Positions 51,541 to 57,512 of a stretch of DNA of 64,000 bases are shown piece by piece. The stretch is from the NCBI GenBank assembly GCA_913009205.1, contig CAJVYC010000002.1, forward strand, positions 1 to 64,000, read 5' to 3'. The notes beneath the pieces were generated by a model that worked only from the letters and a program-made list of their open reading frames with translations, ran no database searches and was not told where the DNA came from. How positions within the stretch are numbered: position 1 is the first letter of the stretch; the number at the start of each line of letters is the position of its first letter. Both the position numbers and the translations under genes were made by a program. This stretch comes from an uncultured Fluviicola sp. (lineage in GTDB: Bacteria > Bacteroidota > Bacteroidia > Flavobacteriales_D > Crocinitomicaceae).

Positions 51541-51942
51541 TTAATCCTTCTTTTGTGATGAAATTAACTCTGGGTCTGCCTTAATGAATAGGTTTGCCCA
51601 AATAATTTTAGATAAGGAATAGAAATACGGAGCCGTAACAATTGATGCAATTACAATAATTAAGATCTGCAATCCTACGGCCATGTCTTCAAAAAATAAA
51701 TTAAATGCGACCCAAAAAGTGACAAACAAAGCAACTCCTAGAGCATACGAAACGAACAGTGCACCAAAATAAAACCCAGGTTCTGGTGAGTACTTCAAAT
51801 CACATTTTGGGCAGTTTTTATAAATATCCCCAGCCTTTTTCAGATTGTAAGGATGCGACTTGAAAAAATCACCTTCCTGACACCGTGGACATCTCATTTT
51901 AAAAATACTGTAGAACTTCGAACCTTTAGAAAAAACCGCCAT
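51541..51942 (-). CDS. DUF983 family membrane protein
   Basis: 133 residues from the ATG at 51942. The N-terminal zinc-ribbon-like part MRCPRCQEGDFF ... NCPKCDLKY (two CxxC pairs) is followed by two membrane segments (GALFVSYALGVALFVTFWVAF and ILIIVIASIVTAPYFY). This is the DUF983 pattern. A longer TTG reading from 52020 would overlap the Fnr gene and is rejected. It follows the Crp/Fnr gene on the same strand, 64 bp downstream. Function unknown; family members sit near cytochrome oxidase genes in some bacteria. Confidence 0.85.
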   Translation of the reverse strand: MAVFSKGSKFYSIFKMRCPRCQEGDFFKSHPYNLKKAGDIYKNCPKCDLKYSPEPGFYFGALFVSYALGVALFVTFWVAFNLFFEDMAVGLQILIIVIASIVTAPYFYSLSKIIWANLFIKADPELISSQKKD

Positions 51943-52006: not shown

Positions 52007-52696
52007 TTAACCCCCGGCAACTTTTAATAATCCATCTTTGTTAAGAATTTCAATTTTTCTAGCGTGCGTTTTGATTAACTCTTCATCTTTAAAGTCTTTT
52101 AAAAGTCTTATCAGAGTCTCGGTGGCAGTCCCTACAAAATTAGCCAAATCTTCTCTTGAAAGGTTAATCAATTCATTGGTATAAATATCATTCAGAATAA
52201 CCAATGATGATGCTAATCTCTCTCGAACTGACTTTTGAGCCATATTTGTAACAAAAGTTGCGCGCTCAGCCAACTCGATAGATAGCTCTTTCATTATTCC
52301 ATTGCGCAGACTAGGATTTGTGTCCACCATATCCAAAAAGTCTGCTTTGTTAATAAAACAGATATTACTGTCTTCAAGAGTAGTTGCAGAAACTGTATAC
52401 GGTTCACCGCTAAACATTGCTCTAAAACCGACTATCTCACCTGCTACTGCTAAATGAATTATTTGTTCTTTACCTTCCTCTCCTCTTCCAAAAATCTTGA
52501 CTTTTCCTTCATTAATACAATAAACTCCTCTTGGCGCACTTCGTTCTAGAAAGAGTGGCTGATTCTTCTTATAAAAGGCACATGTTTTTGCACTATTCAT
52601 GATGTCAACATCAGAATCACAAAATGAAGCAAATAGAGAATTGTTTCTCGATTTACAATTCTCGCATCCAATATGTCTATATGATTTATCGAGCAT
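52007..52696 (-). CDS. Crp/Fnr family transcriptional regulator with four N-terminal cysteines
   Basis: 229 residues. Four cysteines in the first 40 residues (Cys11, Cys14, Cys26, Cys39; CENC start), then a cyclic-nucleotide-binding-fold domain (VYCINEGKVKIFGRGEEGKEQ, GEIVGFRAMFSGEPYTVSA) and a C-terminal winged helix (SREDLANFVGTATETLIRLL). The layout resembles Flavobacteria Fnr-like regulators that respond to oxygen or nitrosative stress through an iron-sulfur cluster, but the cysteine spacing differs from E. coli FNR. It is just downstream of the metal/redox group, separated by an orphan transcript signal. Confidence 0.88.
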   Translation of the reverse strand: MLDKSYRHIGCENCKSRNNSLFASFCDSDVDIMNSAKTCAFYKKNQPLFLERSAPRGVYCINEGKVKIFGRGEEGKEQIIHLAVAGEIVGFRAMFSGEPYTVSATTLEDSNICFINKADFLDMVDTNPSLRNGIMKELSIELAERATFVTNMAQKSVRERLASSLVILNDIYTNELINLSREDLANFVGTATETLIRLLKDFKDEELIKTHARKIEILNKDGLLKVAGG

Positions 52697-52709
52697 CCTT
52701 CATTTTACT

Positions 52710-52717
52710 TAAAGTTA
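52710..52717 (-). promoter_or_regulatory. -7-like box for the Fnr gene
   Basis: Minus-strand TAACTTTA, one mismatch to TAnnTTTG, 13 nt before the ATG at 52696. The predicted leader is about 9 nt. Confidence 0.4.
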
Positions 52718-52778
52718 ATAGTTTATGTCATTCTTTTGGAGGTAAATGTCTTTTTTGGTTCCAATCTATATTGACTTA

Positions 52779-52793
52779 ACGCAGATCATGCGT
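52779..52793. promoter_or_regulatory. ACGCA-N5-TGCGT inverted repeat upstream of Fnr
   Basis: A perfect 5-bp inverted repeat with a 5-bp spacer (GATCA), in the Fnr upstream region and just before the orphan plus-strand unit. Possible operator; no factor can be named. Confidence 0.35.
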
Positions 52794-52799
52794 GCTTTA

Positions 52800-52909
52800 G
52801 TTTCGTCTAACAAAATTTAAATTAATGCAATTAGAAACCAGACGGACGATTATTGGCTTCCAGAAAGAAACTCCATAGGTGGGGTAAACAGTAAGTAAGT
52901 TTTCATGTT
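52800..52909 (+). ncRNA. candidate short RNA or unknown small transcript ending at a strong terminator
   Basis: A plus-strand stretch between Fnr (minus) and the lipoprotein (minus) ends in a clear terminator (52910-52946), yet no plus-strand gene of normal size lies before it. The only small frame is a 17-residue ORF (ATG 52826; MQLETRRTIIGFQKETP). Promoter position is not clear. Candidates: small RNA, leader-type peptide, or remnant of a lost gene. Confidence 0.35.
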
Positions 52910-52946
52910 TCAGCTCTGGTTTAGTTTATCGAAATCAGAGCTTTTT
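52910..52946 (+). terminator. strong plus-strand terminator of unknown transcript
   Basis: AGCTCTGGTTT pairs with AAATCAGAGCT (one G-U pair), then eight T. The T tract is only on the plus strand, so it does not serve the minus-strand lipoprotein gene to its right. Confidence 0.85.
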
Positions 52947-52957
52947 TTTGGGAAGAA

Positions 52958-53452
52958 CTAAAAGTAAGATATAAGATCTGAAACGTCAGAGAATTCGCTA
53001 AAGTCAATTTTACTAAAGCGTTGCATTACTTCATTGTAGCGTACCATCTTTTCTTGAACTTTCATTCCTAATTCGATGATATCATCCGCATCCAATTTAG
53101 CTTCTATGCCTTCTTGTTGATTTTCAATGAATACAATCTCTTCTGACAATCTTTCAATCTCTAGAGCCGTTGATGACATTTCGGCAACTAGTGCCAATTT
53201 TTCAAAGGCATCCAACTCCCCTTCTTTCATTTTATCATAGGCATCCAACAACCCTTCCGCTAAGACAAGATATTCAGTAGCCAATTCATCGACAGCGTCT
53301 AAATACTCTTTAACCTCAGGTTCTCGCTCTTCCAACGCTTTTTCAGGCGTCTCATCAACTTGATCTTTGGTTGTATCACTCGACGCTTCTTCAGAACAGC
53401 TTGCAGCTAAAAACAATAAGAATATTGGCAGATATACGATGTACTTTTTCAT
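52958..53452 (-). CDS. acidic helical lipoprotein, unknown function
   Basis: 164 residues. Lipoprotein signal MKKYIVYLPIFLLFLAASC (Cys19). After an acidic linker the rest is a long charged helix or helical bundle (VDELATEYLVLAEGLLDAYDKMK, EIERLSEEIVFIENQ, VQEKMVRYNEVMQRF). No recognised family. It is the last gene of the group with the HMA-barrel protein (39 bp gap) and the secreted thioredoxin-like protein. A periplasmic accessory or metal/redox partner is an inference from context only. Confidence 0.75.
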   Translation of the reverse strand: MKKYIVYLPIFLLFLAASCSEEASSDTTKDQVDETPEKALEEREPEVKEYLDAVDELATEYLVLAEGLLDAYDKMKEGELDAFEKLALVAEMSSTALEIERLSEEIVFIENQQEGIEAKLDADDIIELGMKVQEKMVRYNEVMQRFSKIDFSEFSDVSDLISYF

Positions 53453-53491
53453 GATCGATGATTTTATAGCGTTCCCTAAAGATAGAGAAAA

Positions 53492-54859
53492 TTATAATCT
53501 CTCGTACTTACAACATGAATGAAGATTTTCATAAGCTACATCAGTAGCTTTGTGTGTGTCAGAGTCGTACCCAACTTCGGCAAGTGCTACTTTCAAATCA
53601 TCCAATGACAATTTCAAAGAGTCGAAACGCACTTTAAGCGATTGAGATTTTTGATCCCAATTGGCAAACGAAACACCAGCCATACTATTTAAAGTTCCTT
53701 CAATTGTTTCTTTACACATTCCGCAAATCCCAAAAACCTTGAAACGCTCTTCTTGATAAACGAACAATCTTTCTTCTTTTTGCACGAGTGTCTTTTTTGG
53801 TTCTTTAGCGAAGAAGCGGTATGAAATTCCACCGGTAATTTGAATTCCTGATGAAATCTGCGTCCCTCGCATAAATTGATACATTGGAATGTCAGCCGTT
53901 GCAAAAACAGAGATCTGTGGTTTCTTAAACATATATGTAGCCTGAGGCACAAAAGAAAGCATCGCACTTCCCGTAGACTCTTGCTCTATATTGTATAACG
54001 ATAAGATATTCAGGTTTTCATGTGCTTGCATTCTCCCAACCCATTCACCTTTAAGTTGGCCCAACAGACTCAATCTGTTGTTGAATACGCTTGTTCCTCC
54101 GTAAAAGCCAACTGTTGCATAATCACCAAATTTAATTCCCAAAGAGTTCCAACCTTTGTGAATATAGAGGGCGCTTGTAAATAATTTAAAATTCTTTTTC
54201 TTGAAATTCTTCAAATAGAATGCGTAGAACATCAAGTCATTGGACCCTGTTGTGGCTTGAACTGTTGGAGGCGATGTCTGCCAGATTTCAATAGAATCAA
54301 TGAATGGACTAGAAGGATCATCTTGATTCAAAAAATAGGATTGACCCACAAATGTTGAATCGTCATGTCTACCTAACGGCATTTTCAATCCCAACCCAAG
54401 TGTCAACTCAGATTGAATCGAATTTTTTTCATTTGAATAAACGTTGTATCGAGGAAAGAGGATTAAATCACCAAATCCCGATGAGGTAACCGACTCACTA
54501 TTAATATATTGAACACCGCCAGTCATAGTTGTGTCAGGATTCTCAGTAATCGTTCTGTTTAGATAATAACCCGCCGCTACTGAAAATGTCAACTTCTTTG
54601 TCAGGCCATAATCTGCTTTCAAGAAAAGGTAGTCGCTTGATAAATTATCGAAAAACGCAGTAGTATCTCTATCTCCAGACATAAATCGATCAGACCTTGT
54701 GTACTTATAAGAACCTACAAGTTGAACTTGTCTTTCTTGTAGAACACCAGCCGAAGCTCCACCTGCTAATGGAGAACCTCCACCACCAGAACAGCACCCC
54801 TGGCCAAAAGAGCTATTTCCAAGAAACAACGTAAGGATTGAAACAATTACTAAACGCAT
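53492..54859 (-). CDS. outer-membrane beta-barrel protein with C-terminal heavy-metal-associated (HMA) domain
   Basis: 455 residues. Signal peptide ends SSFGQ, followed by a Cys/Gly-rich start (GCCSGGGGSPLAGG). Residues 45-355 show alternating beta strands of a transporter-type barrel (SYKYTRSDRF, LILFPRYNVYS, LGLGLKMPLGRHDDSTF, ITGGISYRFF). Residues 370-455 are an HMA-type metal domain: FGICGMCKETIEGTLNSM (Cys379, Cys382), LKVRFDSLKLSLDDLKVALAEVGYDSD, ending HSCCKYER (Cys449, Cys450). Fusion of an outer-membrane barrel to an HMA domain is unusual and suggests copper- or other soft-metal handling at the outer membrane. Confidence 0.78.
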   Translation of the reverse strand: MRLVIVSILTLFLGNSSFGQGCCSGGGGSPLAGGASAGVLQERQVQLVGSYKYTRSDRFMSGDRDTTAFFDNLSSDYLFLKADYGLTKKLTFSVAAGYYLNRTITENPDTTMTGGVQYINSESVTSSGFGDLILFPRYNVYSNEKNSIQSELTLGLGLKMPLGRHDDSTFVGQSYFLNQDDPSSPFIDSIEIWQTSPPTVQATTGSNDLMFYAFYLKNFKKKNFKLFTSALYIHKGWNSLGIKFGDYATVGFYGGTSVFNNRLSLLGQLKGEWVGRMQAHENLNILSLYNIEQESTGSAMLSFVPQATYMFKKPQISVFATADIPMYQFMRGTQISSGIQITGGISYRFFAKEPKKTLVQKEERLFVYQEERFKVFGICGMCKETIEGTLNSMAGVSFANWDQKSQSLKVRFDSLKLSLDDLKVALAEVGYDSDTHKATDVAYENLHSCCKYERL

Positions 54860-54878
54860 AAGAAAGTAGATTTCTGAA

Positions 54879-55670
54879 TTACTTTACTTCGAATTTCTCA
54901 ACCACCGTTTCTTCATTGCTAGATACTTTCAGCATATAAATACCAGTTGCTAAATTATTCACATCTAGCTGAATTCCATCTACAAGAAGGTTTAAATCTG
55001 CCATTGAAACCGTTGAGAAAACTTTTCCATTCAATCCAATCACCTCTATAACCACAGCTTGAGGAGCAACCATTCCAACCGTAACGTTCAAAACAGAACT
55101 TGTTGGGTTAGGAAAACAAGAAACATCCAAATTGGTAACTTCCAATTCGGCAATTCCAACAGGTTGACACGCATTCGCAAGATCATCCAAAGCATAATTA
55201 ATTGATACCTCAGCTGCTTGACCGCTTGGTGAATTATTTTTATTATAATATACCTTATGATCTGTACATCCTAGAACGACAACCTTAGGCATTCCTGCTG
55301 ATCCATAATCAAACATATCTAATTCAGTAGAGCTAAAGAATTTTGCATTGGTAATACCACTTGCTGCGCACCAATCTTGAATCGTTACACATGAAGAATT
55401 TGAAAAATCATCCGTCATCCAATATTCAACGACACCTGGGTGACTAACAGCAAAACCCAAAACTGCATTGTGAACATCCAATAAAGGCCCCGCGCAAGTT
55501 GCACATGGCATTGTCCAACCTATTACAATTATTTTCCCAGCGTCTAATTCATCGAACAAATTATACGATGTTCCTGCGCAATCTGTAACTGTTGCATCTG
55601 TTGCATTCGTTTGTCCAAATGCTGTTGCGCTAAATAACAACGCCAACGTTAAACTTGCTAATAATTTCAT
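54879..55670 (-). CDS. secreted CxxC thioredoxin-like protein with T9SS type A sorting domain
   Basis: 263 residues. Signal peptide ends TAFGQ. A thioredoxin-like region follows: IIVIGWTMPCATCAGP with the active-site pair Cys56/Cys59, then GMPKVVVLG (cis-Pro position). More cysteines (DCAGTSYN, SSCVTIQDWCAAS, VLGCTDHK) are present. The last 75 residues are a T9SS type A domain (CFPNPTSSVLNVTV ... ATGIYMLKVSS). It would act at the cell surface. It is the first gene of the group with the HMA-barrel protein (20 bp gap), pointing to a joint metal or thiol function. Confidence 0.85.
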   Translation of the reverse strand: MKLLASLTLALLFSATAFGQTNATDATVTDCAGTSYNLFDELDAGKIIVIGWTMPCATCAGPLLDVHNAVLGFAVSHPGVVEYWMTDDFSNSSCVTIQDWCAASGITNAKFFSSTELDMFDYGSAGMPKVVVLGCTDHKVYYNKNNSPSGQAAEVSINYALDDLANACQPVGIAELEVTNLDVSCFPNPTSSVLNVTVGMVAPQAVVIEVIGLNGKVFSTVSMADLNLLVDGIQLDVNNLATGIYMLKVSSNEETVVEKFEVK

Positions 55671-55824
55671 ACACGTTTTATTTATAGGATTAGAGACTGC
55701 AATGTAACATGTATTTCTTTGAATTAATAATAGAATGTGTATTATTTAAGTCGAGTGAAGTGCGGGTTTATTTACTAGGAATCCAAACAATGCAATTTTC
55801 CAAATAAATCGTTACTTTCTCTAC

Positions 55825-56342
55825 TTGAAATTCAAATCGAAAATAGGGCACCTCGCCAAACTGAAAATGCATAACGTTACTGTAACGGATGAAATTCTAA
55901 AATCATTTTGGACAAAGGATGACATAGGATCGCTCTACAACCAGCGTTTCCACATCACTCTGGACGATCAGATTACATGGCAAGATGACTCTATTTCTTT
56001 GGGAAATAATACGGCCTATATTGCACTTTCAAAAGCGCGAATGAAGGAATTAAAAATTGATTTAGAATGATGAGCTTTCTGTAGAACTGAAACTCGATTT
56101 CTCAAAGTATGAGGTTCAAAGTTCCAGAGGAATTCACTGAAGTTATAGAGCAGGATCACGAGAGACGAGAGCGCTTCGATTCACTTCGAATGGGTGTTCA
56201 AAGAGCGATCATTTATCCGATCATTCAGATCAAATCCAGTGACAAAAAAATAGAGAAAAGCATCTTCTTTCTTGAAAACCTAAAACGCGCTCAAAAAGGA
56301 GAAGAAACAATGCATCATGTCTTAGGTAAAGATTTGCTCTAA
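55825..56342 (+). pseudogene. DUF1905/OmdA-like gene split by two single-base frameshifts
   Basis: The first part (from TTG 55825; VTVTDEILKSF, YIALSKARMKELKIDL) matches the DUF1905 half of a common protein, and the last part (56109-56342; FKVPEEFTEVIEQDHERRERF, ETMHHVLGKDLL) its OmdA/YdeI C-terminal half. The linking piece lies in a third frame (DELSVELKLDFSKYE, 56069-56112). Removing one T near 56068 and one G near 56112 would restore a continuous protein. Real pseudogene or assembly error; both shifts are +1. Confidence 0.7.
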
Positions 56343-56369
56343 TAATTATATATTTGAGCCATAAATATA

Positions 56370-57512
56370 ATGCTCATGTCTGTTTACTTGGATAACGCGG
56401 CGACAACGCCTATTGCACCAGAAGTTATAGAAGCTATGCTTCCTGTTTTGAAAGAAGGATTTGGAAACCCATCATCGGCCCATAGTTACGGTCGGAAGTC
56501 AAAGGCTCTTATCGAAACTTCAAGGCGTTCAATTGCGAAACACTTGAACTGTTTACCTTCCGAAATTATTTTCACTTCAGGTGGAACGGAAGCTGATAAT
56601 ATGGCGTTCAATTCCGCTGTAAATCAAATGGGTGTAACGCACATTGTCACTTCTAAGTTGGAACATCATGCAGTTGGACATACCGCTGAGCACATGAAGT
56701 CAGATGCAGTGCGCGTTTCTTACGTAAACGTTTGCAAAAAAGGAAACGTCGATTTAAAGGACCTTGAACGATTGCTGCAATATGAAGATAAAACGCTTGT
56801 ATCCTTGATGCATGCAAACAATGAAATATCAACTCTTCTTCCTATCGATAAGGTAAGTGAACTGTGCCGAAAATACAACGCACTTTTCCATTCAGATACC
56901 GTTCAAACAATGTGTCACTATAAATTTGATTTAAAAGCATTGGATATTGATTTCATTGCAGGAGCCGCACACAAGTTCCACGGACCAAAAGGAATTGGAT
57001 TTCTTTACATCAACAAAGACCGTAAGGCTGACGTGCTAATTCATGGTGGAGCTCAAGAAAGAGGTCTTCGCGGTGGAACGGAAAATGTTTACGGAATTGT
57101 TGGAATGGCGAAAGCAATGGACTTGGCTTATGAAGATCTTTTAGGTCATAAAAATCACGTACAGGAATTGAAAACGTACATGATCAACCAATTAAAAGAG
57201 TACTTCAACACAATTAATTTCCATGGCGAAACGGCCCCAGAAAAGTCATTGTATACAGTTCTAAATGTTTGTTTCCCTAAAAACGAAAAATCAAGCGTGT
57301 TACTTTTTACTTTGGATATGAAAGGCGTTGCAGTTTCTGGAGGTAGCGCTTGCTCCTCTGGAGCTTCGAAAGGTTCTCATGTTTTGGAAGGAATTGGAGC
57401 AGATATGGAGCGTCCGAATGTGCGTTTCTCATTCTCAAGACTCACAACTAAGGAAGAAATTGATTTTGCGCTTGATCAGGTAAAATCTGTTTTCGAGAAG
57501 ACATTGGCTTAA
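56370..57512 (+). CDS. cysteine desulfurase (IscS/NifS-like)
   Basis: 380 residues. Fold type I PLP enzyme: YLDNAATTPIAPEV, FTSGGTEADNMAF, HANNEIST, HSDTVQTMCH, AAHKFHGPKG (Schiff-base Lys) and the catalytic loop SGGSACSSGASKGSHVL (Cys). It mobilises sulfur from cysteine for iron-sulfur clusters or thio-modifications. The short active-site loop is of the IscS/group I type. Met1 or Met3 (56376) may be the start. Confidence 0.93.
   Translation: MLMSVYLDNAATTPIAPEVIEAMLPVLKEGFGNPSSAHSYGRKSKALIETSRRSIAKHLNCLPSEIIFTSGGTEADNMAFNSAVNQMGVTHIVTSKLEHHAVGHTAEHMKSDAVRVSYVNVCKKGNVDLKDLERLLQYEDKTLVSLMHANNEISTLLPIDKVSELCRKYNALFHSDTVQTMCHYKFDLKALDIDFIAGAAHKFHGPKGIGFLYINKDRKADVLIHGGAQERGLRGGTENVYGIVGMAKAMDLAYEDLLGHKNHVQELKTYMINQLKEYFNTINFHGETAPEKSLYTVLNVCFPKNEKSSVLLFTLDMKGVAVSGGSACSSGASKGSHVLEGIGADMERPNVRFSFSRLTTKEEIDFALDQVKSVFEKTLA

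Follow-up and report, generated by a model that had tools for sequence, protein, structure and literature searches.

Organization of the locus

We describe a minus-strand locus in a 64,000-nucleotide stretch of DNA from an uncultured Fluviicola sp. (assembly GCA_913009205.1, contig CAJVYC010000002.1, positions 1 to 64,000; hereafter the window), with a focus on two adjoining genes for an exported thioredoxin-fold protein and a probable outer-membrane barrel that carries a heavy-metal (HMA) domain. Gene 1, for the thioredoxin-fold protein (54879-55670, 263 aa), is followed after 19 bp by gene 2, for the barrel with its HMA domain (53492-54859, 455 aa), and after a further 39 bp by gene 3, for a small lipoprotein (52958-53452, 164 aa). 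A Crp/Fnr-type gene (52007-52696) lies 261 bp past gene 3, with a DUF983 gene (51541-51942) behind it, all on the minus strand. A preliminary description had proposed this order of three adjoining genes, regulator and DUF983 gene, and the order is present; it had given the gaps as 20-39 bp, of which the upper value is right and the lower is not, and had placed the locus at 52007-55670, an interval that leaves out the DUF983 gene.

The product of gene 1 combines a signal peptide (recognized by eye), a CxxC motif, a conserved GMP at the cis-proline place and a C-terminal sorting domain of the type IX secretion system (T9SS). The CxxC of the thioredoxin domain, C56-A-T-C59, is encoded at 55494-55505 (minus strand), and both cysteines are invariant among 16 aligned relatives, all of which also keep the GMP. 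The T9SS type A sorting domain covers residues 186-260 (54891-55115, minus strand) and is matched by PF18962 (E 5.4e-11, 43.1 bits) and TIGR04183 (39.4 bits, over the cut-off), which together with the signal peptide mark the protein as T9SS cargo. Pfam gave no thioredoxin match for the window protein alone at E 0.1; AhpC-TSA is matched by seven of the 16 relatives, and a profile of the family matches the solved thioredoxin 2l5o (E 5.4e-5). A thioredoxin fold is predicted from this profile match, the CxxC and the cis-proline, and the earlier claim of an exported CxxC thioredoxin-like protein with a T9SS tag is upheld.

In the gene 2 product, a CC motif (C22-C23; 54791-54796, minus strand) stands right behind the signal peptide. 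These are the sole invariant cysteines in ten aligned barrels, and the motif is found in 52/52 barrels examined (51 by pattern, L257 by reading). The HMA domain occupies residues 373-432 (53564-53743, minus strand), bears the metal motif C379-G-M-C382 and exceeds the curated cut-off of PF00403 (27.3 bits vs 24.8); its matches among solved structures are mostly copper ATPase domains and CopZ, with MerP, ZntA and others. A further cysteine pair, C449-C450 (53510-53515, minus strand), belongs to the C-terminal CCKYER tail.

The remaining part of gene 2 probably forms an outer-membrane barrel, judging from Pfam, strand alternation and profile comparison with a wider family (see below). Pfam matches are weak: among ten barrels, Phenol_MetA_deg was matched by three (best E 0.0015) and DUF5777 by three (best E 0.0037). 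Strand alternation is likewise weak (mean z 1.26 over 22 barrel sequences) and not significant for the window barrel (p 0.43). A profile search of solved structures with the barrel returned HMA relatives only and no barrel structure, and NCBIfam has no family for it. Of the earlier claim of a barrel fused to a heavy-metal domain, the second half is confirmed and the first stays at the level of probability. Searched against plasmid records, the window barrel had matches in four, confined to the HMA part, and the HMBD-bearing barrel L233 had none.

A conserved thioredoxin-barrel pair

The first two genes form a conserved two-gene unit in Bacteroidota, smaller and far more widespread than the five-gene locus. 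We examined 52 loci with strong barrel matches, of which 50 have upstream DNA; L279 and L280 begin at a contig edge and were left out of the gene-order count, and two further strong matches, G653 (at a contig edge) and G1026 (in two pieces), were not included. A thioredoxin gene lies next upstream of the barrel gene on the same strand in 49 of the 50 loci, counting as adjacent L262, in which the thioredoxin gene has an extra domain and overlaps the barrel gene. The exception is L252, with one T9SS gene between the two. The CxxC is present in all 50 thioredoxins of these pairs, accompanied by a proline at the cis-proline place in 46 (by pattern). The close relatives G003, G004 and G027 share this order, with the barrel-HMA gene immediately next to the thioredoxin gene.

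Of 200 genomes of the Crocinitomicaceae-type family, nine match the barrel below 1e-100, and it is these nine that also hold the strongest thioredoxin matches (below 1e-49). With a ten-barrel profile, matches below 1e-50 occur in 10/249 genomes of the order and 40/375 of the class (the two samples overlap), and the pair was found once in another class of the phylum (G226, locus L095). The pair loci are related by descent, so that the 49 adjacent cases do not amount to 49 independent events; the gene order is regarded as kept because the pair is spread over many families of the class. Conservation of gene order, the check proposed for the locus at the outset, therefore holds for its first two genes and fails for the rest. 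No description of the pair was found in the open-licence PubMed Central literature.

Metal-binding tails

Behind the barrel region, 29 of the 52 barrels carry one of two metal-binding domains, HMA in six and HMBD (PF19335) in 23, as classed by pattern; in L251 the tail has CRM in place of CGM. HMBD was confirmed in L233, the one barrel scanned for it with Pfam (E 3.9e-12), and is also the opening domain of neighbouring CusB-type proteins.

The six HMA-fused barrels form a single clade (support 100/96) in the barrel tree, which excludes L271 with its N-interrupted barrel; a smaller barrel tree supports this clade at only 78/79. Its sister group (100/98) consists of L267-L270, in which HMA is encoded by its own gene directly upstream of the thioredoxin gene, an arrangement of a separate HMA gene that occurs in eight of the 50 loci (L139-L141 and L267-L271). 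The same parts thus occur both split and fused, which we take as an argument for their working together. Related loci encode the HMA domain separately, and in the window lineage it appears to have been joined to the barrel. Similar to the window HMA are the C-terminal HMA of a CusB-like protein (49%) and small HMA proteins encoded next to genes of the HYC_CC_PP and MbnP types.

Copper-type neighbours and sister loci

Genes for CusB-type proteins lie upstream of the thioredoxin gene in 4/50 loci (L232, L233, L244 and L251; for L233 and L251, Pfam confirmed OEP and HlyD_D23/HMBD), and a multicopper oxidase gene lies within three genes of the pair in two others (L245 and L258). Six of ten pair-bearing genomes have a Cu-oxidase_3 match. 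In a sister clade of thioredoxins from the same family (L142-L154), 12 of 13 loci have a multicopper oxidase gene, recognized by the HWHG motif, downstream of the thioredoxin gene; at L145, Pfam confirmed a T9SS-tagged multicopper oxidase, and a HYC_CC_PP gene is nearby. The remote thioredoxin relatives L097 and L113 have no oxidase at their loci. Because of these neighbours, Cus-type or multicopper oxidase genes at some copies of the pair and multicopper oxidase genes at nearly all sister loci, copper or a similar soft metal is likely to be handled at the outer membrane.

The sister loci, often with a gene for a small T9SS protein between the thioredoxin and oxidase genes, form a second conserved unit. 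In the thirteenth of them, L148 (6535-7350), the oxidase is absent and the thioredoxin has a C-terminal tail like the oxidase tail of L147 and L154; this reflects either a deletion between sorting domains or an assembly error.

The wider barrel family

When 12 remote barrels were combined into a profile, it matched the whole length of the pair barrels (hhalign probability 100, E 9.5e-40), and two of the 12 match Phenol_MetA_deg (best E 8.9e-8). Ten of the 12 have a DUF3179 gene as neighbour (identified by eye, and for one also by Pfam); selenocysteine forms of DUF3179 have been tabulated (PMC9312934). A thioredoxin-fold gene abuts the barrel gene at L098, where it comes first, and at L105 and L108, and at L111 the gene directly before the barrel encodes a CxxC lipoprotein with a weak Thioredoxin_9 match (E 0.047); L098 and L111 are the remote barrels nearest to the pair clade in the smaller barrel tree. 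At L099-L105 and L108-L110, remote barrels with CC or CxC lie next to DUF3179, often with thioredoxin-fold genes near. Another barrel subfamily, L272-L278, has no thioredoxin neighbour and mostly follows a gene for a small lipoprotein of ~120 aa; at one member, L274, the locus also includes an HMA gene and a metal-sensitive repressor (PF02583).

Neighbouring genes of the window locus

The remaining genes had been read together with the pair as one five-gene metal/redox locus. We rejected that unit, since the regulator and DUF983 genes are separate from the pair and the lipoprotein gene accompanies it in G003 only. Gene 3 does encode a small helical lipoprotein (52958-53452, minus strand), with the lipobox LAASC, as claimed; it has no family over the cut-off in Pfam or NCBIfam and is either an accessory or simply a neighbour. 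Matches to it occur in 8/40 genomes altogether: apart from G003, the one relative with the gene next to the pair, six further relatives have weak matches away from it.

The Crp/Fnr-family regulator (52007-52696, minus strand) has the four N-terminal cysteines reported for it (C11, C14, C26 and C40), of which C26 is missing in some relatives. It falls below the cut-off of the Fnr subfamily in NCBIfam (PRK11161, 90 bits vs 228), and its C11-x2-C14-x11-C26 spacing differs from that of E. coli Fnr; it may still bind a cluster. Close orthologues (E <1e-70) occur in 15 of the 24 same-genus relatives searched, and among relatives with an orthologue the pair is known from G003 and G004 alone, on other contigs. 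A hemN-like gene stands beside the regulator in 11/16 regulator loci, and no TTGA-N6-TCAA site, with up to one mismatch, occurs at 54301-56518, ahead of the pair. The DUF983 membrane protein (51541-51942, minus strand; 27.3 bits vs a cut-off of 22.6) tracks the regulator rather than the pair, its gene also following the regulator in G018 and L172, and neither gene lies beside the pair in G003, G004 or G027. We accordingly place both outside the unit, and redox control of the pair by this regulator is not supported. Two relatives, G017 and G020, each have the Crp/Fnr gene on the same contig as a weak lipoprotein match, at a distance of 13-15 kb, which points to an old neighbourhood and not to a system.

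A gene of the YdeI/OmpD-associated type (55825-56342), with PF13376 in its second half, runs divergently from the thioredoxin gene. It consists of two short frames in the window and of a single 171-aa frame in L003 and L044; the broken frame reflects either decay or a sequence error.

Proposed function and alternatives

On balance, we lean towards a reading in which the two genes form a unit that handles a metal at the outer membrane, with copper(I) as the most likely metal, judging from domain type and gene neighbours. The barrel would lie in the outer membrane and, like other barrels of this kind, have its two termini on the periplasmic side. The tail and the CC motif would take up Cu(I) there, the metal would then enter or cross the barrel, and the surface thioredoxin-fold protein would receive, release or redox-adjust it on the outer face. 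The Cus and multicopper oxidase genes that lie nearby lead us, by analogy, to prefer export or detoxification to uptake. We put forward only tentatively, and with more doubt than confidence, a dedicated Cu(I) relay spanning the Bacteroidota outer membrane, in which the HMA or HMBD tail and the CC motif would load the barrel, the T9SS-delivered thioredoxin would receive the metal outside, and cysteine pairs would serve on both faces. The earlier proposal of outer-surface copper or thiol handling under redox control thus survives in its envelope metal and thiol theme, with copper as the probable metal and without the regulator.

Several observations weigh against a copper-handling unit. About 36 of the 50 pair loci have no recognized copper gene within five genes upstream, Cu-oxidase_3 finds no match in the window genome, 23 of the 52 barrels have no tail domain, and HMA and HMBD also serve Zn, Hg and Ag. 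The HMA tree is poorly resolved, and a common origin of fused and separate HMA domains is neither rejected nor shown (approximately unbiased test, p-AU 0.34); moreover, the HMA class of L139-L141 groups with an HMA of the window genome whose neighbours are a DtxR-type iron repressor gene and one resembling a TonB receptor. Four of the 50 pair thioredoxins (L232, L233, L244 and L252), three of them in the four loci with Cus neighbours, have glutamine at the cis-proline place (MQ for MP), so that ordinary thioredoxin chemistry need not be kept. AlphaFold models built from two-row alignments with L032 only reached a predicted local distance difference test score (pLDDT) of 47.5 for the window thioredoxin and 29 for the window barrel.

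Copper could instead move inwards, with the surface thioredoxin-fold protein capturing or reducing it and the barrel delivering it to periplasmic HMA or HMBD domains for cuproenzymes. A TonB-receptor gene precedes the HMA-thioredoxin-barrel genes in L139-L141 (Pfam on L139), MbnP-type proteins, which belong to methanobactin loci, occur beside related HMA genes, and the genome G000 still carries the pair without a multicopper oxidase. However, the TonB neighbour is limited to these three closely related loci, and CusC/CusB-type and multicopper oxidase neighbours indicate efflux and detoxification, which makes uptake unlikely in our view. The redox neighbours in the barrel superfamily (the thioredoxin-fold genes at L098, L105 and L108, the CxxC lipoprotein gene at L111 and the frequent DUF3179 genes) would also suit a thiol/disulfide relay that moves electrons between periplasm and surface, with metal domains that only protect or sense; yet two unrelated metal-binding domains fused at the same barrel end are hard to explain without metal, and we judge such a relay decidedly improbable. 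That the barrel is a structural anchor or a metal-storing sink rather than a conduit, and the thioredoxin a helper in folding or attaching other secreted proteins, would agree with the lack of transport evidence and with the barrels that have no metal tail, but it leaves the tight pairing of the two genes unexplained, and we give it very little credence.

Relation to known systems and significance

The likely working analogue of the metal-handling pair is PcoB/CopB, an outer-membrane copper protein that acts with the multicopper oxidase PcoA/CopA: it is a barrel with a metal-binding end, as the pair barrel probably is, and its gene adjoins one for a secreted copper-handling protein, the role proposed for the pair thioredoxin. 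The two systems differ in the partner, an oxidase there and a T9SS thioredoxin-fold protein here, and in the metal-binding sequence, which is methionine-rich in PcoB/CopB and cysteine-based (CC and HMA/HMBD) in the pair. None of ten pair barrels matched the CopB/PcoB family of Pfam (PF05275) at E 0.1. Efflux of the CusCBA type (resistance-nodulation-division family) is related through its Bacteroidota CusB proteins, which share HMBD or HMA domains with the pair barrels and whose genes are adjacent in the four loci named above, whereas the pair barrel is not of the TolC-like OEP type by Pfam and the window locus has no pump. The T9SS multicopper oxidase loci L142-L154 share the sister thioredoxin-fold gene and the T9SS tags, with the oxidase where the pair has its barrel. 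In Bizionia argentinensis, an HMA chaperone whose gene is next to CusB and CopA is called a 'putative periplasmic CopZ' (PMC11213822); it is of the same domain family as the window HMA, which is fused to a barrel instead.

To our knowledge, the passage of copper across the outer membrane is poorly understood, above all in Bacteroidota. With its probable barrel, its surface thiol protein and two metal domains that can stand in for one another, the pair offers a defined object for tests, and two unnamed protein families become candidates for copper handling.

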